Source of the DNA: Paramagnetospirillum kuznetsovii
GTDB lineage: Bacteria; Pseudomonadota; Alphaproteobacteria; Rhodospirillales; Magnetospirillaceae
Assembly (NCBI RefSeq): GCF_003284725.1
Contig: NZ_PGTO01000003.1
Span: 186,001-250,000 of the forward strand
Direction: 5' to 3'
DNA length: 64,000 nt
Shown here: positions 16,106 through 44,892 of the stretch, piece after piece
How positions within the stretch are numbered: the first letter of the stretch is position 1
Layout: every line of letters begins with the position of its first letter
The notes under the pieces: model-generated
Told to the model about the DNA's origin: nothing
Database searches by the model: none
The model's input: only the letters and a program-made list of their open reading frames with translations
Program-made: the position numbers and the translations under genes

Positions 16106-17068
16106 ATGACCCCCTCGCCCCATATCCCGGTCCTGCTGTCCGAGGTGATCGAGGCGCTGGCCCCGCGCGACGGCGGCATCTATGTGGACGGCACCTTCGG
16201 GGCCGGTGGCTATTCCATGGCCATGCTCGACGGCGCCCGCTGCACCGTCCACGGCATCGACCGCGACCCCCATGCGGTGGCGCGGGGCCGTGCGCTGCAA
16301 ACCCAGCGCGGCGGCGCCTTCGCCATGATCGAAGGCCGCTTCGGCCAGATGGACGAGCTTTTGCGTATCCAGGGTGTCAACCAGGTAGACGGCGTCGCCC
16401 TGGACATCGGCGTGTCCTCCATGCAGATCGACGAGGCCGAGCGCGGCTTCTCCTTCGCCAAGGACGGACCGCTGGACATGCGCATGGAGCAAAGCGGCCC
16501 CAGCGCCGCCGATCTCGTCAATCACACCGAGGAAGCGGCGCTGGCCGACATCATCTATCGCTACGGCGAGGAACGCCTGTCGCGCCGGGTGGCCAAGGCC
16601 ATCGTGACCATGCGCAAGGACAAGAAGTTCGAACGCACCTCGGAGCTGGCCGCCGTCATCCGCCGGGTGGTCCCCAAGCATGCCGACGGCATCGATCCGG
16701 CGACGCGGACCTTCCAGGCGCTGCGCATCGCGGTCAACGACGAACTGGGCGAGTTGGAGCGGGGACTGGCCGCCGCCGAGCGGTTGCTCGCCCCCGGCGG
16801 GCGGCTGGCGGTCGTCACCTTCCATTCCCTGGAAGACCGGGTGGTCAAGGACTTCATGCGCGACCGCAGCGGCGAGGCGGCGCGTCCGTCGCGCCATCTG
16901 CCCCAGGCGGCCTCCGGCCCGGCGGCCAGCTTCACCCTGCTGCATCGCCGCGCCGTCAAGGCCGGACAGGAAGAGACCCAGGCCAATCCGCGCGCCCGCT
17001 CGGCCAAGCTGCGCGCCGCCATCCGCACCGAAGCCCAAGCCTGGACCCAATCGGGGAGGCCGTCATGA
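16106..17068 (+). CDS. rsmH: 16S rRNA m4C1402 methyltransferase RsmH (MraW)
   Basis: 320 aa from the ATG at 16106, preceded by GGCGGGGGC. Uses S-adenosylmethionine to methylate N4 of C1402 in 16S rRNA. N-terminus HIPVLLSEVIEAL is a hallmark. The SAM site is visible as YVDGTFGAGGYS, and DGVALDIGVSSMQIDEAERG, then PLDMRM and YRYGEERLSRRVA follow. C-terminal FHSLEDRVVKDFM and RARSAKLRA are conserved. Its last four bases overlap ftsL (ATGA). Confidence 0.96.
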   Translation: MTPSPHIPVLLSEVIEALAPRDGGIYVDGTFGAGGYSMAMLDGARCTVHGIDRDPHAVARGRALQTQRGGAFAMIEGRFGQMDELLRIQGVNQVDGVALDIGVSSMQIDEAERGFSFAKDGPLDMRMEQSGPSAADLVNHTEEAALADIIYRYGEERLSRRVAKAIVTMRKDKKFERTSELAAVIRRVVPKHADGIDPATRTFQALRIAVNDELGELERGLAAAERLLAPGGRLAVVTFHSLEDRVVKDFMRDRSGEAARPSRHLPQAASGPAASFTLLHRRAVKAGQEETQANPRARSAKLRAAIRTEAQAWTQSGRPS

Positions 17069-23340: not shown

Positions 23341-24714
23341 ATGATCCCGGTCCCGTTCCTCAAAGGCAAGCGCGTCGCGGTGATGGGTCTCGGCAAGTCC
23401 GGGACGGCGACGGCACGCGCGCTGCTGGCCAGCGGCGCGGGCATCATGGCCTGGGACGATAACGACGGGGCGCGCCGCATGGGCGCCGAGGACGGCCTGC
23501 CCATCGGCGACCTGATGGTCATGAACATCGCCAAGGCCGATCTGCTGGTGTGGAGCCCGGGCATTCCCCACACCCATCCCCAGCCGCATCCGGTGGCGGT
23601 AAAGGCCAAGGCGGCCAATGTGCCCATGGTCTGCGACGTGGAACTGCTGGCCCTGGCCAAGCCCGAGCACCGCTTCCTGGCCGTGACCGGCACCAATGGC
23701 AAGTCCACCACCACCACCCTGCTGACCCATGTCTTCCAGGCCTCGGGCCACCCGGCGGCGGCTGGTGGCAATCTGGGCACCGCCGCGCTGGACATGCCCG
23801 AGCTTCCCGGCGACGGCCGCTATGTGCTGGAACTGTCCTCCTATCAGTTGGAGCTGGTGCACAGCCTGAAGCTGGGCGTCGGCATCCTGCTCAACATCAC
23901 CCCCGACCATCTCGGCCGCCACGGCGGCATGGACGGCTATGTGGCGGCCAAGCGCCGCCTGTTCGACTTCCTGGTTCCCGGCGGCGCGGCGGTGATCGGC
24001 ATGGATGACGGCGCTTCCAAATCCATGGCCGCCGAACTGTCGCGCCTGGGTGTGCGGGTGGTGCCGGTCTCGGTCAAGCAGGTGCTGGCCGACGGCGTTT
24101 CCGCCCCCGAGGGCGTGCTGCTGGACAATGGCAAGCCGGTCTGCGACTTGAAGGACTTCCCCCGCCTGCCGGGCCGCCATAACTGGCAGAACGCCTGCGC
24201 CGTCTATGCCGCCGCCCGCGCCGAGGGCGTCCCAGCCAAGGCCATCGTGGCGGCGCTGGCCAGCTATCCCGGCCTCGCCCATCGCCAGGAACTGATCGCC
24301 ACCGTGGACGGCATCCGCTGGATCAACGATTCCAAGGCCACCAACGCCGACGCGGTGGACAAGGCGCTGGTCTGCTACGACCGCATCTATTGGATCCTGG
24401 GCGGCCAAGCCAAGGAAGGCGGCATTGCCTCGCTGGAAAAGCATTTCGGCCGCATCGAGCACGCCTTCCTGATCGGCGAGGCGACCGAGGATTTCGCCGC
24501 CGCCCTTGACGGCAAGGTCCGCTTTACCCGCTGCGCCACCCTGGCCAATGCGGTCGCCAGCGCCCGCAACCTGGCGACCTCGGACGCCATCGACGGCTCG
24601 GTGGTGCTGCTGTCGCCCGCCTGCGCCTCGTGGGATCAGTTCACGTCGTTCGAGCATCGCGGCGACAGCTTCCGCGAACTGGTGATGGCCTTCGCCGGGG
24701 GGGGAGGAGAATGA
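23341..24714 (+). CDS. murD: UDP-MurNAc-L-Ala:D-Glu ligase MurD
   Basis: 457 aa. Adds D-Glu in the cytoplasmic stage of wall synthesis. N-terminal Rossmann-like VAVMGLGKSGTATARALLA; ATP site FLAVTGTNGKSTTTTLLTHV; ELSSYQLELVHSLKLGVGI; GLAHRQELIATVDGIRWIND and SKATNADAV; C-terminal LLSPACASWDQFTSFEHRGD. All are MurD signatures. Its stop overlaps the ATG of the mini-ORF in the spacer before ftsW instead of the ftsW start itself. Confidence 0.96.
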   Translation: MIPVPFLKGKRVAVMGLGKSGTATARALLASGAGIMAWDDNDGARRMGAEDGLPIGDLMVMNIAKADLLVWSPGIPHTHPQPHPVAVKAKAANVPMVCDVELLALAKPEHRFLAVTGTNGKSTTTTLLTHVFQASGHPAAAGGNLGTAALDMPELPGDGRYVLELSSYQLELVHSLKLGVGILLNITPDHLGRHGGMDGYVAAKRRLFDFLVPGGAAVIGMDDGASKSMAAELSRLGVRVVPVSVKQVLADGVSAPEGVLLDNGKPVCDLKDFPRLPGRHNWQNACAVYAAARAEGVPAKAIVAALASYPGLAHRQELIATVDGIRWINDSKATNADAVDKALVCYDRIYWILGGQAKEGGIASLEKHFGRIEHAFLIGEATEDFAAALDGKVRFTRCATLANAVASARNLATSDAIDGSVVLLSPACASWDQFTSFEHRGDSFRELVMAFAGGGGE

Positions 24715-24866
24715 CGCACCCGGCACCCGAGATGGAGCGGAGCGGAATGCGGGCGGGACGCCCGCGCTCCGGCGAAGCGACTATGCGCGTTGAGCGCACG
24801 CGCCTCGTGGCGCGGAAGCCAAGCGAACGGAGTTCGCGCCCGGCGACTGAGGGGCTTTCATCATGA
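24711..24866 (+). repeat. Intercistronic repeat insert A with coupling mini-ORF (murD/ftsW)
   Basis: The spacer holds one open frame of 51 codons. Its ATG overlaps the murD stop and its TGA overlaps the ftsW start (ATGA at both ends). The encoded peptide is Arg/Ser rich (MTHPAPEMERSG..., ending SSRPATEGLSS) and looks like no known protein. The DNA contains a REP-like unit (24749-24770), hairpins TGCGC-GTTGA-GCGCA and CGCGCC-TCGT-GGCGCG, and CGAAC-GGA-GTTCG. The conserved 3' block CGCCCGGCG-AC-TGAGGGG supplies the ftsW ribosome-binding site. Related inserts: B, C and D. Confidence 0.7.
24749..24770 (+). repeat. REP-like palindromic unit, single copy
   Basis: Stem GCGGGCG-GGA-CGCCCGC followed by GCTCC, 22 bases. 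The identical unit occurs as inverted pairs at 39540-39597 and 44819-44881. Here it is single and lies inside insert A. Confidence 0.75.
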
Positions 24867-25993
24867 CCATCACTTTTGGCCGCACCGATACCTCGACCCT
24901 GGGCCGCTGGTGGTGGACGGTGGATCGCTGGTCCATCGCCGCCCTGGTCCTGCTGGTGGCGGTGGGCGCCCTGCTGACCATGGCGGCCAGCCCGGCGGTG
25001 GCCGAGCGCATCAACGTGCAAAGCTTCCACTTCGTGCGCCGCCAGTTCATGTTCCTGGCCCCCGCCTTGATCACCATGGTGGCGGTGTCGCTGCTGAGCC
25101 CCAAGCAGATCCGCCGCATGGCGGTCATCGGTCTGATCGGCACCATCGTGCTTCTGGCCCTGGTGCCGGTGCTGGGCGCCGAAGTCAAGGGCGCCAAGCG
25201 CTGGCTGAATCTCGGCGGTCTGTCCATCCAGCCGTCGGAATTCGTCAAGCCCATGTTCGCGGTGGTCTCGGGCTGGATGTTCGCCTCCGCCCGCATCGAG
25301 GAAGGCTTCCCCGGCCGCCTGATCGCCACCGGACTGTTCGGCGTGGTCGCCGCCCTGCTGCTGGTCCAGCCCGATGTGGGCCAGACCGCCATCCTGACCG
25401 CCATCTGGGCGGTCCAGTTCTTCCTGGCCGGTCTGTCCATCGGCTGGGTGGTCGGGCTGGGCCTCGCCGCCCCGGTGGGCGCCATGGCCGCCTATTACGC
25501 CTTCCCCCATGTGCATGCGCGCATCGACAAGTTCATGGACCCTTCCGGAGCGGGGGGCTATCAGGTCACCACCGCTCTCAACGCCTTCAAGAACGGCGGC
25601 CTGTTCGGCAAGGGGCCGGGCGAGGGCCGGGTCAAGCTGTCGCTGCCCGATGCCCATACCGACTTCATCCTGGCGGTGGGCGGCGAGGAATTCGGCATCG
25701 TGCTGTGCCTGTTCATCCTGGCGCTGTTCGCCTTCATCGTGCTGCGCGGCTTCTCGCGGGTGCTGAAGGAAGACAATCTGTTCGTGGTTCTATCCACCGC
25801 CGGGCTGCTGGTCCAGTTCGGCCTGCAGGCCATGGTCAACATGGCCTCGACCCTGCGCATGATGCCCGCCAAGGGTATGACGCTGCCCTTCATCTCTTAC
25901 GGCGGCTCGTCCATGGTGGCGCTGGCGCTGGGCATGGGCATGGTCCTGGCGCTGACCCGCACCCGCTATGGCAGGGAGGGCCACGACGCATGA
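24863..25993 (+). CDS. ftsW: Lipid II polymerase FtsW (SEDS family)
   Basis: 376 aa with about ten transmembrane helices. SEDS glycosyltransferase that polymerises lipid II at the septum with FtsI. Motifs: GAKRWLNLGGLSIQPSEFVK (the SEDS signature), LLLVQPDVGQTAIL (containing the catalytic-loop Asp), GPGEGRVKLSLPDAHTDFIL and LPFISYGGSSMVALALGMGM. Length and order are normal. It starts after insert A, preceded by TGAGGGG as ribosome-binding site, and its stop overlaps the ATG of insert B. Confidence 0.96.
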   Translation: MTITFGRTDTSTLGRWWWTVDRWSIAALVLLVAVGALLTMAASPAVAERINVQSFHFVRRQFMFLAPALITMVAVSLLSPKQIRRMAVIGLIGTIVLLALVPVLGAEVKGAKRWLNLGGLSIQPSEFVKPMFAVVSGWMFASARIEEGFPGRLIATGLFGVVAALLLVQPDVGQTAILTAIWAVQFFLAGLSIGWVVGLGLAAPVGAMAAYYAFPHVHARIDKFMDPSGAGGYQVTTALNAFKNGGLFGKGPGEGRVKLSLPDAHTDFILAVGGEEFGIVLCLFILALFAFIVLRGFSRVLKEDNLFVVLSTAGLLVQFGLQAMVNMASTLRMMPAKGMTLPFISYGGSSMVALALGMGMVLALTRTRYGREGHDA

Positions 25994-26115
25994 GCGACCG
26001 CAGGGAGCGCGGGCGCGTTGAGCGCCCAGGAGCGACGAGGAAGCGCAGCGAAGGAGGGAAGCGGAGGAGCCCAGTGAGCGGAGCGAACGCCCGGCGCATG
26101 AGGGCTAAACCATGA
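25990..26115 (+). repeat. Intercistronic repeat insert B with coupling mini-ORF (ftsW/murG)
   Basis: 41-codon frame MSDRRERGRVERPG..., ending NARRMRAKP, very basic. Its ATG overlaps the ftsW stop and its TGA overlaps the murG start (ATGA at both ends). It shares with insert A a GTTGA-loop hairpin (here GGGCGC-GTTGA-GCGCCC, with compensating stem changes) and the 3' block CGCCCGGCG-CA-TGAGGG. It lacks the REP unit; the middle is an AGCG/GGAG-rich stretch. The 3' block is read in a different frame from inserts A, C and D. Confidence 0.62.
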
Positions 26116-27224
26116 CCACTCCCCCTCTCATCGCCCTCGCCGCCGGTGGTACCGGCGGCCACGTTTTTCCCGCCGAGGCCCTGGCCGCCGTGCTGCTGGA
26201 GCGCGGCCACCGGCTGGCCCTGGTGACCGACAAGCGCGGCGCCGCCTATGGCGGCACCCTGGGCTCGCTGGAGACCCATCGTATCTCTGCTGGCGGCATC
26301 GCGGGACGCGGCAAGCTGGCCAAGCTGCGCGCCGTGGCCGAACTGGGCCTGGGCGTGCTGCAGGCCCGCTCCCTGCTGTCCCGCATCCGCCCCGCCGTGG
26401 TGGTGGGCTTCGGCGGCTATGCCTCGGTTCCCGGCGTGGTCGCCGCCGTGCTGACCGGCATTCCCACCGCCATCCACGAACAGAACGCCGTGCTGGGCCG
26501 CGCCAATCGGCTGCTGGCGGGCAGGGTCAAGCGCATCGCCACCTCCTTCGCCGAGGTCAGCCATGTGGAGCCCCGCCTGGCCCCCAAGCTGGTCCATACC
26601 GGCATGCCGGTGCGGGCGGGCATCGACGCCATGCGCTCGGTCGCCTATCCGGCGCTGGACCAGACCGGCCCGATCAATCTGGTGGTGCTGGGCGGCAGCC
26701 AGGGCGCCCGCATCCTGTCCGAGGTGGTTCCCGCCGCGCTGGTCCGCCTGCCCGAAGCCCTGCGTCGGCGCATTTCCATCGCCCAGCAATGCCGTCCCGA
26801 GGATCTCGACGCGGTGGGCAAGGCCTATGAGGGCTCGGGTATCACCTGCACCCTGCAAAGCTTCTTCACCGACGTGCCCGAGCGGCTGGCGGGCGCCCAT
26901 CTGGTGATCGGCCGTGCCGGAGCCTCCACCGTGGCCGAACTGACCGCCCTGGGGCGTCCGGCCATCCTGGTCCCCTATCCCTTCGCCATCGACGACCACC
27001 AGACCGCCAATGCCCATGCGGTGGAAGACAGCGGCGGGGCCTGGCTGATGCAGCAGGACGGCTTTACCGCAGAGGCCCTGGCCGCCCGGCTGGAAACCCT
27101 GTTGGGCCAGCCGGAAACCCTGATCCGCACCGCCGAATGCGCCGCCAAGGCAGGCCGCCCCGACGCCGCCGCCCGGCTGGCCGATCTGGTGGCCGGCCTC
27201 ATCTCACCCGCGACGGGGATCTGA
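26112..27224 (+). CDS. murG: Lipid II synthase MurG (GlcNAc transferase)
   Basis: 370 aa peripheral membrane enzyme converting lipid I to lipid II. G loop 1 LAAGGTGGHVFPAEALA, G loop 2 VVGFGGYASVPGVVAA, HEQNAVLGRANRLLA, GGSQGARILSEVVP and IGRAGASTVAELTALGRPAI are all present. Upstream TGAGGG from insert B serves as ribosome-binding site. murC follows after 3 bases. Confidence 0.97.
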   Translation: MTTPPLIALAAGGTGGHVFPAEALAAVLLERGHRLALVTDKRGAAYGGTLGSLETHRISAGGIAGRGKLAKLRAVAELGLGVLQARSLLSRIRPAVVVGFGGYASVPGVVAAVLTGIPTAIHEQNAVLGRANRLLAGRVKRIATSFAEVSHVEPRLAPKLVHTGMPVRAGIDAMRSVAYPALDQTGPINLVVLGGSQGARILSEVVPAALVRLPEALRRRISIAQQCRPEDLDAVGKAYEGSGITCTLQSFFTDVPERLAGAHLVIGRAGASTVAELTALGRPAILVPYPFAIDDHQTANAHAVEDSGGAWLMQQDGFTAEALAARLETLLGQPETLIRTAECAAKAGRPDAAARLADLVAGLISPATGI

Positions 27225-27227
27225 CCC

Positions 27228-28646
27228 ATGCGCCACATGCCGCTCTCCATCGGGACCATCCATTTCGTCGGCATCGGCGGCATCGGCATGTCGGGCATCG
27301 CCGAGATCCTTCACAATCTGGGCTATGCCGTCCAGGGCACCGACATCGCCGACAATTACAATGTCGAGCGGCTGCGCAAGAAGGGCATCACCGTCCATAT
27401 CGGCCACACCGCCGAGGCGCTGGGCGAGGCCCGCGTCGTGGTGGTGTCCTCGGCGGTCAAGCCCGACAATCCCGAGGTGGTGGCCGCCCGCGCCAAGCTG
27501 GTGCCGGTGGTGCGCCGCGCCGAGATGCTGGCCGAGCTGATGCGCCTGAAGGCCGCCATCGCCATCGGCGGCACTCACGGCAAGACCACGACGACCTCCA
27601 TGATCGCGGCCCTGCTGGACGCCGCCCATATGGACCCCACCGTCATCAACGGCGGTATCATCAACGCCTACGGCACCAATGCCCGGCTCGGCGCGAGCGA
27701 CTGGATGGTGGTGGAGGCCGACGAATCCGACGGCAGCTTCATCAAGCTGCCGTCCACCGCCGTGGTGGTCACCAATATCGACCCCGAGCACATGGACTAC
27801 TACGGCAGCTTCGACAAATTGCGCGACGCCTTCCGCACCTTCGTCGAGAACATCCCGTTCTACGGCTTCGCCGCCATGTGCATCGATCACCCGGAAGTCC
27901 AGGCGCTGATCGCCAAGGTGCCCGACCGCAAGATCGTCACCTACGGCTTCTCGCCCCAGGCCTTGGTACGCGCCTCCAATGTGCGCACCGGCGCCGACGG
28001 CGCCCGCTACGACGTGACCATCACCGACCGGGTCACCGAGCGGGTGCGGTGCATCGAGGACATTCACCTGCCCATGTTCGGCGAGCACAACATCCTGAAC
28101 TCGCTGGCCGCCGTGGCGGTGGCCACCCAGTTGGGTCTGGCCAATGACGTGGTCAAGAAGGCCATGGGCTCGTTCGCCGGGGTCAAGCGCCGCTTCACCA
28201 AGACCGGCGAGGCCAAGGGCGTCACCGTCATCGACGATTACGGCCACCATCCGGTGGAGATCGCCGCCGTGCTGAAGGCGGCGCGCAGCGCCACCTCGGG
28301 CAATGTCATCGCGGTGGTCCAGCCCCACCGCTATTCCCGCTTGTCCAATCTGTTCGCCGAGTTCTGCACCTGCTTCAACGACGCCGACACGGTGGTCGTC
28401 GCCGATGTCTATGCCGCTGGCGAGCAGCCCATCAAGGGCTTCGACAAGATCGGTCTGGTCAAGGGATTGCAGGAACACGGCCACCGCCACGCCGTCGGCC
28501 TGTCGGGGCCGAAGGAACTGGCCGCCGTTGTCAACGGCATCGCCAGGCCGGGCGATATGGTGGTCTGCCTGGGCGCGGGCAACATCACCGGCTGGGCCCA
28601 TGCCCTGCCCGCCGAGCTGGCAGCTTTGCCGGAGCCCGCCGAATGA
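27228..28646 (+). CDS. murC: UDP-MurNAc:L-Ala ligase MurC
   Basis: 472 aa. First amino-acid-adding ligase of the pathway. N-terminal [23 protein letters not shown] site [91 protein letters not shown]. No missing residues were noted. It overlaps murB by 4 bases (ATGA). Confidence 0.97.
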
Positions 28647-29566
28647 TGACCAAGCGGCAAACCCATGACTGGCGTGACGCCCTGCCCCAGGTCCGGGGCC
28701 GGATCGGCTTCGACCAGCCCATGGCGCCTTATACCTGGTTCCGCGTCGGCGGCCCGGCGGAGGTTTTGTTCCGTCCCGCCGATCTGGACGACCTGATCGC
28801 CTTCCTGGCCGAATTGCCGCCCGAGATTCCGGTGACCACCATCGGCGTCGGCTCCAACCTGCTGGTCAGGGACGGCGGCGTTCCCGGCGTGGTCATCCGC
28901 CTGACCGGGCCCTTCGCCACCATCGAGCCCTGCCAGGGCTCCATCACCGCCGGAGCGGGCGCGCTGGACCTCACCGTCGCCAAGGTCGCGATGGAGGAAG
29001 GCATCGCCGGGCTGGAATTCCTGTCCGGCATTCCCGGCACCATCGGCGGCGCGCTGCGCATGAACGCGGGCGCCTTCGGAAGCGAGATGAAGGACGTCAC
29101 CACCAGCGCCGAGGCGCTGGACCGCACCGGCCAGCTTCACATCTTCTCGCTGGACGATCTGGGCTTTTCCTATCGCCACAGCGCCCTGGACGACAGTTGG
29201 ATCTTCCTGGCCGCCACCTTGAAGGGCCGCCCCGGCAAGGAGGCCAATATCGCGGCCAAGATGGAGGAAATCCGCGCCGGTCGCGAAGAGGCCCAGCCCA
29301 CCCGTGCCCGCACCGGCGGCTCCACCTTCGCCAATCCTCCCGGTCACAGCGCCTGGAAGCTGGTGGACGCCGCCGGTTGCCGGGGCCTGACCATGGGCGG
29401 CGCCCAGATCAGCGAGAAGCACTGCAATTTCCTACTCAACCTGGGCGACGCCACCGCCGCCGACATCGAGGATCTGGGCGAGGAAGTCCGGCGTCGGGTG
29501 ATGGACGCCAGCGGGATCGAGCTTCGCTGGGAAATCCAGCGCATCGGGGTGAGGAAAGAGCCATGA
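28643..29566 (+). CDS. murB: UDP-N-acetylenolpyruvylglucosamine reductase MurB
   Basis: 307 aa flavoenzyme reducing UDP-GlcNAc-enolpyruvate to UDP-MurNAc with NADPH. FAD-binding motifs: [37 protein letters not shown], and [20 protein letters not shown]. The catalytic region [20 protein letters not shown] and [20 protein letters not shown] (Ser proton donor) are present. Type I MurB organisation. The stop overlaps the ATG of insert C. Confidence 0.96.
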
Positions 29567-29703
29567 AGGACCGGAGCGCAGCGACTAGCCCGTTGCCCAT
29601 AGGCCCGGGCGGGCAATTGCCCGCAGGGAGGGCGCGCGCCTCGTGGCGCGAGAGCCAAGGCCACGGATGTGGCCGCCCGGCGATTGAGGGACAGAAGCAA
29701 TGA
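29563..29703 (+). repeat. Intercistronic repeat insert C with coupling mini-ORF (murB/ddl)
   Basis: 46-codon frame [17 protein letters not shown]..., ending CGRPAIEGQKQ. Its ATG overlaps the murB stop and its TGA overlaps the ddl start. It shares CGCGCC-TCGT-GGCGCG and the following AGCCAAG with insert A. Next comes a hairpin GGCCAC-GGAT-GTGGCC where A has CGAAC-GGA-GTTCG, a changed but still paired stem. The 3' block is CGCCCGGCG-AT-TGAGGGA, in the same frame as in A and D (peptide RPAxEG). Confidence 0.7.
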
Positions 29704-43838: not shown

Positions 43839-44785
43839 CACACCGCCTCCGACACATAGATGAAGATGGTGGCCAACAGGCCCAGCAGCAGCGCGCCGCC
43901 CAGGAAGTCGGCATAGCGGAACACCCGCATCTTGGCGATGACCGTCTCGAAAAAGCCCAAGGCGGTGGCCAGGATAAAGCATTTGGCGAGGAAAGCCCCC
44001 AGACCCAGCGCCACCCCCAGAGCCCCCGCCCCCGGCTGGGCCATGCCCCAGGGCGCGAAGATTCCCGAGATCAGGGCCATGAACAGGGTCAGGCGCACCA
44101 TGCCGGCCCCTTCCATCAGCGCCAGATGACGGCCGGAATATTCCAGCACCATGGCCTCGTGCACCATGGTCAGTTCCAGATGGGTGGCCGGGTTGTCGAT
44201 GGGGATGCGGCCGTTCTCGGCGATGGCCACCATGATCAGCGCCGCCAGCGCTAGCCCCAGCGACACCTCGATGCCGACACCGCCGCCCAGCACGAAGGCG
44301 ATGATCTGGGCGGGCGATGTGGTCCCGGTGATCAGCGACAGCGAGAAACTGACCATCAGCATGGCGGGCTCGGCCAAGCTGGCGATCATCATCTCGCGGC
44401 TGGCCCCCAATCCGCCGAAGCTGGTGCCCACATCCATGCCCGCCAGCGCCGTCCAAAACCGCGCCACCCCCAACAACGCCACCAGGGCGATCAGATCGGC
44501 GGCGGGCGCCAGGACCATATTGGTGGTGAAGGTGGGGATGATGCAGGCCGCCAGCCATACGGCGGCGAAGGTGACATAGGGGGCGGCGCGGAACACCCAG
44601 GACGCCGAATGGGCCACCACCGCCTCCTTCTGGAGCAGGCGGTAGAAATCCCGATAGGGCTGGAACGGCGAGGCGCCGATGCGGCCGTTGAGCCGCGACT
44701 TGACCAGCCGAACCCAGCCGGTGATCAGCGGCGCCAGCGCCACCACCAGGAAGATCTGGGCGATCTGACCGAGGATGGCGGTCAT
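43838..44785 (-). CDS. hyfC: HyfC/NuoH-like membrane subunit
   Basis: 315 aa, about eight transmembrane helices. NuoH-type subunit joining the hydrophilic arm to the membrane arm near the quinone or redox site. Conserved segments: RLNGRIGASPFQPYRDFYRL near the start, ASREMMIASLAEPAMLM and AENGRIPIDNPATHLELTMV followed by HEAMVLEYSG, with the expected cluster of Glu residues. The start follows insert D, whose TGAGGG is the ribosome-binding site. Confidence 0.91.
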   Translation of the reverse strand: MTAILGQIAQIFLVVALAPLITGWVRLVKSRLNGRIGASPFQPYRDFYRLLQKEAVVAHSASWVFRAAPYVTFAAVWLAACIIPTFTTNMVLAPAADLIALVALLGVARFWTALAGMDVGTSFGGLGASREMMIASLAEPAMLMVSFSLSLITGTTSPAQIIAFVLGGGVGIEVSLGLALAALIMVAIAENGRIPIDNPATHLELTMVHEAMVLEYSGRHLALMEGAGMVRLTLFMALISGIFAPWGMAQPGAGALGVALGLGAFLAKCFILATALGFFETVIAKMRVFRYADFLGGALLLGLLATIFIYVSEAV

Positions 44786-44892
44786 TGTTGACGTCCCTCA
44801 AGCGCCGGGCGGGTGGTGGCGGGCGGGACGCCCGCGCTCCGGATCCAGCGCCGTTCTGCGGAGCGCGGGCGTCCCGCCCGCATCTCGCTCAT
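44782..44892 (-). repeat. Intercistronic repeat insert D with coupling mini-ORF (hyfB/hyfC)
   Basis: 36-codon frame on the minus strand: MSEMRAGRPRSAERRW..., ending TTRPALEGRQQ. Its ATG overlaps the hyfB stop and its TGA overlaps the hyfC start. It contains an inverted pair of the 22-base REP-like unit, read here in the same frame as in insert A (MRAGRPRS). The 3' block CGCCCGGCG-CT-TGAGGGA is shared with inserts A-C, although this operon is unrelated to the dcw genes. Confidence 0.72.
44819..44881. repeat. REP-like inverted pair inside insert D
   Basis: Two perfect 22-base copies (44819-44840 and, inverted, 44860-44881) separated by 19 bases. Identical in sequence to the units at 24749 and 39540/39576. 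Confidence 0.8.

Follow-up and report, generated by a model that had tools for sequence, protein, structure and literature searches.

Bridging open reading frames in the dcw and hyf operons

The window analysed here is a stretch of 64,000 nucleotides of Paramagnetospirillum kuznetsovii DNA (contig NZ_PGTO01000003.1, positions 186,001 to 250,000), in which copies of a dispersed repeat occupy three gene junctions of the dcw cluster and a fourth junction in a hydrogenase (hyf) operon. NCBIfam models confirmed murD, ftsW, murG, murC, murB and ddl, and also a hydrogenase-4 subunit B-like gene preceding a NuoH-like gene. Nine other junctions listed between positions 17065 and 32798 measure 89, 1, -4, 6, 7, 3, -4, -13 and 1 nt. 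The murD/ftsW, ftsW/murG and murB/ddl spacers measure 148, 118 and 133 nt, with start-to-start distances of 152, 122 and 137 nt, and each is crossed by one small open reading frame (mini-ORF; Table 1). The first-pass annotation, made from the letters alone, had proposed that these spacers are repeat inserts keeping stop and start coupled; the coordinates, sizes, phases and ATGA at both ends that it gave for the three dcw spacers proved exact to the base, and the hyf spacer, which it had counted as a fourth case, fits.

Table 1. Bridging mini-ORFs and repeat modules in the window
Feature	Positions	Strand	Remarks
Mini-ORF bridging murD to ftsW	24711..24866	+	51 codons; contains a type-B repeat copy; ATGA at each end
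Hairpin P3, CGCGCC-TCGT-GGCGCG	24799..24814	+	module recurs in other copies
Hairpin P4, CGAAC-GGA-GTTCG	24824..24836	+	arm covariation across copies
Conserved 3' block CGCCCGGCGACTGAGGG	24837..24853	+	ends 9 nt upstream of the ftsW ATG; putative ribosome-binding site
Mini-ORF bridging ftsW to murG	25990..26115	+	41 codons; type-C copy; ATGA at each end
Conserved 3' block CGCCCGGCGCATGAGGG	26088..26104	+	ends 7 nt upstream of the murG ATG
Mini-ORF bridging murB to ddl	29563..29703	+	46 codons; type-B copy with an extra nested hairpin; ATGA at each end
Hairpin P4, GCCAC-GGAT-GTGGC	29660..29673	+
Conserved 3' block CGCCCGGCGATTGAGGG	29674..29690	+	ends 9 nt upstream of the ddl ATG
Fourth bridging mini-ORF, between hydrogenase-4 subunit B-like and NuoH-like genes (hyf)	44782..44892	-	36 codons; start-to-start 107
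Conserved 3' block CGCCCGGCGCTTGAGGG	44795..44811	-	ends 9 nt upstream of the following ATG

A hairpin-rich dispersed repeat

The repeat is about 100 nt long and has up to four hairpins (P1 to P4) with fixed connectors between them; it occurs in several subtypes, whose names (for instance type B and type C) were coined in this analysis. Its 3' end, the 17-mer CGCCCGGCGNNTGAGGG, contains the Shine-Dalgarno-like GAGGG and is found 85 times in the 4.4-Mb genome of this organism, against no match for the reversed control. Genes were called with a custom codon-usage caller, checked against the dcw genes. Between co-directional genes there are 45 sense and 11 antisense copies, while 17 lie between convergent and nine between divergent genes, two at contig ends and one within a called gene. 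The excess of sense copies (p=5e-6) is a bias only and not absolute. In the stretches taken from this genome, the upstream stop reads [AG]TGA in 24 of the 42 junctions holding CGCCCGGCG, compared with 111 of the 367 other co-directional pairs (p=8e-4). Copies may also stand in tandem arrays of two to five, as in loci L161, L164 and L179.

The hairpins shared by the inserts, with their compensating changes, had been noticed in the window and are real: the arms of P4 vary between copies yet remain paired. Counting every recognisable copy at hand, with arms exchanged between copies as a control, standard pairs amount to 97% in P4 hairpins of 14 nt (n=126; 66% in the control, maximum 70%), 96% in those of 15 nt (n=36; 56%) and 99% in those of 16 nt (n=26; 67%), and the 13-nt hairpins are weaker (n=49; 82% versus 52%). 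A hand-picked set of 28 P4 copies was 94.3% paired versus 59.1% after shuffling, with 46 cells altered on both sides, and none of 500 shuffles equalled it; in the same set two measures counting pairs or types were no higher than in the shuffles. Folding of single spacers is not unusual for the three dcw spacers (z of -0.78, -0.66 and -1.54), and the hyf spacer folds unusually well (z of -4.40).

Phase and openness of the inserts

A junction was considered in phase for coupling when the start-minus-stop distance equals 1 modulo 3. The own genome has 43 distinct junctions with the repeat, 24 of them with [AG]TGA upstream, and 19 of these are in phase (p=5e-6); when nTGA downstream is also asked for, 22 junctions remain: 18 keep phase, and in 17 the spacer is open and coupled. 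The phases of the other 19 junctions are split 8/6/5. Among relatives, once junctions above 900 nt were dropped, 60 of 67 are in phase and 52 are coupled through one ORF (control, 10 of 23). A scan of named genomes gave, among the matches listed, 3 of 4 junctions in phase for Magnetospirillum and Phaeospirillum (control, 2 of 2) and 14 of 19 for the remaining genomes (control, 4 of 16); five of those 19 came from stretches outside the 80 of 115 that are named, and one uncultured bin yielded no usable junction.

We then pooled all DTGA/nTGA junctions, TTGA included. From 188 junctions, those above 700 nt having been dropped earlier, 24 were excluded because their downstream start is not nTGA. 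In the resulting DTGA set (n=119), 99 are in phase and 98 chain-coupled, the latter made up of 92 that keep phase and six that do not but are linked through a chain. Counting each orthologous junction once leaves 84, of which 66 are in phase (p=2e-17; one third expected), compared with 14 of 45 at other stops. These other-stop controls are conservative, because they include a few coupled stops of the form CTGATG or TAATG.

Openness was evaluated on in-phase spacers shorter than 200 nt, which are open in 18 of 18, 48 of 53 and 13 of 15 cases in the three sets, whereas dinucleotide shuffling leaves 10.1, 30.2 and 8.1 open (pooled, 79 of 86; p=3e-13). It had been predicted that copies between co-directional genes would exceed shuffled spacers and controls in both properties, and at overlap-type stops they are indeed far more often in phase and open. 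Some inserts that are not bridged by a single ORF are crossed by serial mini-ORFs joined by overlapping ATGA, namely two in L149 (the second of only two codons) and in L187, three in L200 and four in L164; in L169 and L179 the chain continues and the called downstream start lies beyond it. Of the 74 copies at coupled junctions, 64 place the end of the 17-mer either 9 or 7 nt upstream of the start. Two counts were not used as evidence: an apparent avoidance of 8-nt spacing in coupled copies, which is partly definitional since that frame ends at the TGA of the motif itself, and a count of 63 out of 63 in a set chosen on phase. A period of the tandem arrays modulo 3, judged by eye from listings, was unconvincing.

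Orthologous junctions in relatives

The four junctions were compared in 16 or 17 genomes of the genus each, the own genome counted; the murB/ddl locus of G013 and the hyf locus of G015 were left out as incomplete. The expectation that relatives free of the insert would show a direct ATGA overlap was confirmed in 9 of 17 genomes for murD/ftsW, 16 of 17 for ftsW/murG, 11 of 16 for murB/ddl and 7 of 16 for hyf, which makes direct ATGA overlap the most frequent arrangement in the genus at these junctions (43 of 66 readings). As called, 22 of the 23 non-overlapping readings keep phase and are open up to a stop lying on the downstream start; the exception is the hyf junction of G016 (21 nt), whose GTG start call looks misplaced. 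Among the 22, the 917-nt reading before ddl in G004 is a murB that the caller missed. In G002 and G006 the coupling start at murD/ftsW is TGATG or TAATG rather than DTGA. It should be noted that these readings are not all independent, as G005 and G014 have the same insert length at murD/ftsW, G009 and G011 at ddl, and G005, G009 and G014 at hyf.

Unrelated inserts at the same kind of junction

G005, G009 and G014 carry at hyf an insert from a second family of dispersed repeats (CATCCCGACGACCNNCGGGAGGAGGGATC), which is matched with at most three mismatches 8 times in G000, 11 in G005, 51 in G009, 75 in G011 and 32 in G014. We examined 40 stretches from G011 and G009 together with the three known hyf loci, for a total of 44 copies in both orientations, one junction above 400 nt being dropped. 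At DTGA junctions 15 of 19 inserts are in phase and 13 are coupled, whereas at other stops 4 of 18 are in phase, two of them coupled via CTGATGA. Without the three loci known beforehand, 12 of 16 DTGA junctions are in phase (p=8e-4), and collapsing duplicates between G009 and G011 leaves 10 of 14 (p=0.004). At the hyf junction of G003 (L360, G003:C20) the insert is 1,061 nt long and the coupling frame is free of stops over 354 codons, while the five other frames hold 11, 14, 4, 7 and 12 stops. One antisense gene is called in the same insert.

Since unrelated inserts obey the same rule, the constraint on phase and openness seems to be a property of the junction and not of the repeat. The first-pass annotation had described repeats "selected or built" to preserve coupling; the first term fits better than the second, because the rule is shared by a 1-kb insert and by unrelated repeats whichever way they are oriented.

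A proposed model of insertion and retention, and its alternatives

On the basis of these sequence comparisons, we propose with a probability of roughly 0.85 that dispersed repeats insert at stop/start overlaps and that selection for translational coupling retains those forming a bridging mini-ORF. The observations made directly in the sequences are the presence or absence of the insert at orthologous junctions, the bias in phase and openness, and the placement of the GAGGG block. The repeat would insert, among other sites, at DTGA overlaps inside operons, and the inserts probably arrived at an ancestral ATGA. An insert there would disrupt coupling by termination and reinitiation. In reporters of E. 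coli and Haloferax, according to the excerpted text of PMC10666635, reinitiation declines within a gap of about 20-40 nt and a gap of about 20 nt almost abolishes it; an unbridged insert would therefore be costly. Retained inserts would mostly restore coupling, as a mini-ORF begins with a start codon that overlaps the upstream stop, runs across the repeat and stops on the downstream start; tandem repeats may be crossed by a single ORF or by several joined in series through ATGA. Ribosomes would translate the mini-ORF, melt the hairpins and shield the GC-rich insert from Rho, and they would be delivered to the downstream start next to the repeat's own Shine-Dalgarno, where they could reinitiate.

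Several points weigh against this model. Copies in the own genome are also found between convergent genes (17/85), in antisense (11) and between divergent genes (9), hence the repeat is not dedicated to coupling. Coupling is dispensable at some junctions, since 20 of the 119 pooled junctions are out of phase: six are chain-coupled via two or three mini-ORFs if TTG starts and overlaps of the TAATG type are allowed, and 14 are not coupled. Co-directional [AG]TGA junctions of 60-300 nt that lack the motif CGCCCGGCG lean in phase too, more weakly than those holding the motif (13 of 24; with nTGA downstream, 6 of 11 in phase and only 3 of 11 coupled); motif-free co-directional junctions of the same size with other stops are split 43/41/33 (n=117). 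Most loci in relatives were picked by the motif and then by an ATGA within 4-12 nt, a choice that builds the conserved 3' block and the downstream ATGA into that set but leaves phase free. Gene starts are those of the custom caller and not of the annotation. Finally, a mobilising protein was not found in searches for the Y1 transposase and HEARO over 29 genomes.

Among alternative explanations, the repeat might be coupled by intrinsic design, that is, a master element with a length of 2 modulo 3 and a stop-free frame would give coupling by descent, with no selection at the junction. It is consistent with this that 101, 104 and 107 nt are the most frequent lengths of coupled inserts, that 25 in-phase inserts start with GCGAG directly after the upstream DTGA, and that one frame (frame a) is mostly open also in copies away from overlaps; moreover, mycobacterial interspersed repetitive units (MIRUs) are described as containing an ORF in the excerpts of PMC12548453. 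However, coupled inserts vary from 32 to 446 nt, and permuting P4 lengths and spacings among the DTGA junctions with a recognisable P4 gives on average 30.8 junctions in phase (maximum 45 in 2,000 trials), against 67 of 78 observed. The random phase at other stops and the rule obeyed by the unrelated family and the 1-kb insert argue in the same direction, so that intrinsic design is disfavoured as the sole cause, and we consider it unlikely.

It is also possible to hypothesize that hairpins and Shine-Dalgarno together form a structured RNA acting in cis on translation, with the open frames being incidental. The strong covariation of the hairpin arms, the spacing of 9 or 7 nt between the 17-mer and the ATG in most copies at coupled junctions and the bias towards the sense orientation all agree with such an element. 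On the other hand, Rfam gave no relevant family match up to E=5 at positions 24000-46000 of the window, coupled inserts of 32-44 nt without most of the hairpins still keep phase, and copies are found between convergent genes too. An incidental frame would not give 99 of 119 junctions in phase, and we regard this explanation as improbable.

That the mini-ORFs are genuine small-protein genes with a peptide under selection appears very improbable, even if they are open and placed like genes and a C-terminal RPAxEG is common to the frame-a copies. Peptide frame and sequence shift between copies (GANARRMRA versus RPATEG), and inserts of unrelated origin are found at these junctions with the phase unchanged. 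The 3' block before murG, CGCCCGGCGCATGAGGG, is read in a different frame from the blocks before ftsW and ddl; since the conserved block is thus read in two frames, the peptide is probably not the selected product. Chance combined with observer selection, by which open frames common at 70% GC (in-phase spacers stay open more than half of the time after shuffling, 10.1 of 18) happened to match phase four times, is refuted at genome scale by the 66 of 84 orthologous junctions in phase and the uniform controls.

Returning to retention by selection for coupling, we lean, with little more than even confidence, towards a broader reading of these sequences in which stop/start overlaps may filter what is inserted into them, so that nearly any DNA retained there has become an ORF that is translated and coupled. 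Repeats of unrelated families inserted either way round, tandem arrays with serial mini-ORFs and the 1-kb insert all occur at such junctions mostly as ORFs bridging the frame. If this reading is true, overlap junctions would be places where new translated ORFs arise, and the strictness with which inserts keep phase would reveal, from genome sequence, how far a junction depends on coupling. The many separate insertions, at 84 orthologous junctions scored by phase, would amount to a natural, replicated test of the bacterial need for translational coupling. The model predicts many unannotated translated mini-ORFs, those at junctions of cell-wall genes included, and it could be used to rank junctions by their dependence on coupling.

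Comparison with known repeats and other candidates

MIRUs lie in DTGA coupling sites in the sense orientation of the operon and occur in tandem. According to the excerpts of PMC12548453, these short repeats (reportedly described by Supply et al. in 1997) seem to be mobile, with start codons as insertion sites, and contain an internal ORF coupled with -4 nt spacing, so the idea of a bridging repeat has a precedent. The Paramagnetospirillum repeat resembles them in lying at DTGA overlaps of co-directional genes, with ORF ends overlapping the flanking stop and start, in being mostly sense to the flanking genes (45 vs 11) and in its tandem copies (2-5). It differs in being alphaproteobacterial and hairpin-rich with covarying arms, in its range of 32-446 nt and in being present also outside coupling sites; furthermore, an unrelated second family obeys the same rule here. 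From the features described, and with no claim of sequence homology, it appears to work in the same way and may be regarded as an alphaproteobacterial counterpart, with the suggestion that the constraint comes from the operon and not from the repeat. In searches on coupling, repeats, overlaps and MIRU, which left most subscription journals outside, this was the only close precedent found (PMC12548453, in excerpt); under the same limit, nothing relevant was found on repeats in Magnetospirillum or Rhodospirillum.

Termination-reinitiation at -4/-1 overlaps, as presented in the excerpts of PMC6728339 and PMC10666635, corresponds to the commonest state in relatives and to the property apparently preserved; the difference is that genes here stand 30-450 nt apart and are rejoined by an intervening ORF. 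The TAACTGA repeats of Beggiatoaceae are also dispersed, just 5' of start codons and in some cases within operons, but, as far as the excerpts of PMC4679880 go, forward repeats place stops in all three frames, whereas the Paramagnetospirillum repeat keeps one open.

As for mobility, REP/RAYT and HEARO/IsrB elements are small palindromic dispersed repeats, and HEARO elements insert at ATGA/GTGA. HEARO RNA (RF02033), a candidate suggested by this flank, was matched in none of 29 genomes, and 14 control genomes were silent too. Mobilisation of the REP/RAYT type was set aside, as the Y1 transposase (PF01797) is found in 12 of the 29 genomes, the own one included, and in neither of the copy-richest, G001 and G008. 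A target-site duplication was not supported either: the 6 nt after the left and right ATGA show an identity of 0.41, and shuffling gives 0.36 on average and at most 0.406 in 300 trials, a weak signal at most. In the nine coupled pairs whose left end is GTGA, the right end is always ATGA, and because of this constant pairing the right ATGA looks derived from the element or selected, rather than a copied target.

Distribution and variant copies

The 17-mer is matched in 27 of the 40 genomes searched, with 153 copies in G001 and 167 in G008. A covariance model of the 3' module, for which 150 candidates were scored per genome, was matched 112 times in the own genome and at least once in 22 of 29 genomes. 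Among the matches listed, with names available for 80 of 115 stretches, there are Azospirillum, Nitrospirillum, Roseomonas-like and Phaeospirillum genomes, and a few others, such as those in Rhodococcus and Pseudomonas, are possibly due to chance. In G021 and in the metagenome-assembled genome C5coas_bin-2163 many of the copies listed stand no more than about 100 bases from a contig end; the repeat therefore seemingly breaks assemblies and is probably undercounted.

Some copies of the own genome (L006, L033, L034, L045 and L066) have a longer form, with an extra 3' hairpin after TGAGGG (CCTCGGTGATCG...CGATCACCGAGG-like) and varied tails. Smaller palindromic repeats are nested in copies at positions 29596-29630 (+) and within 44812-44888 (-) of the window, and also in L010, L046 and L069. 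In L026, again of the own genome, about four consecutive 15-nt units GGCACGAAAGCCAGG stand directly 5' of the 17-mer, a local tandem expansion of a connector.

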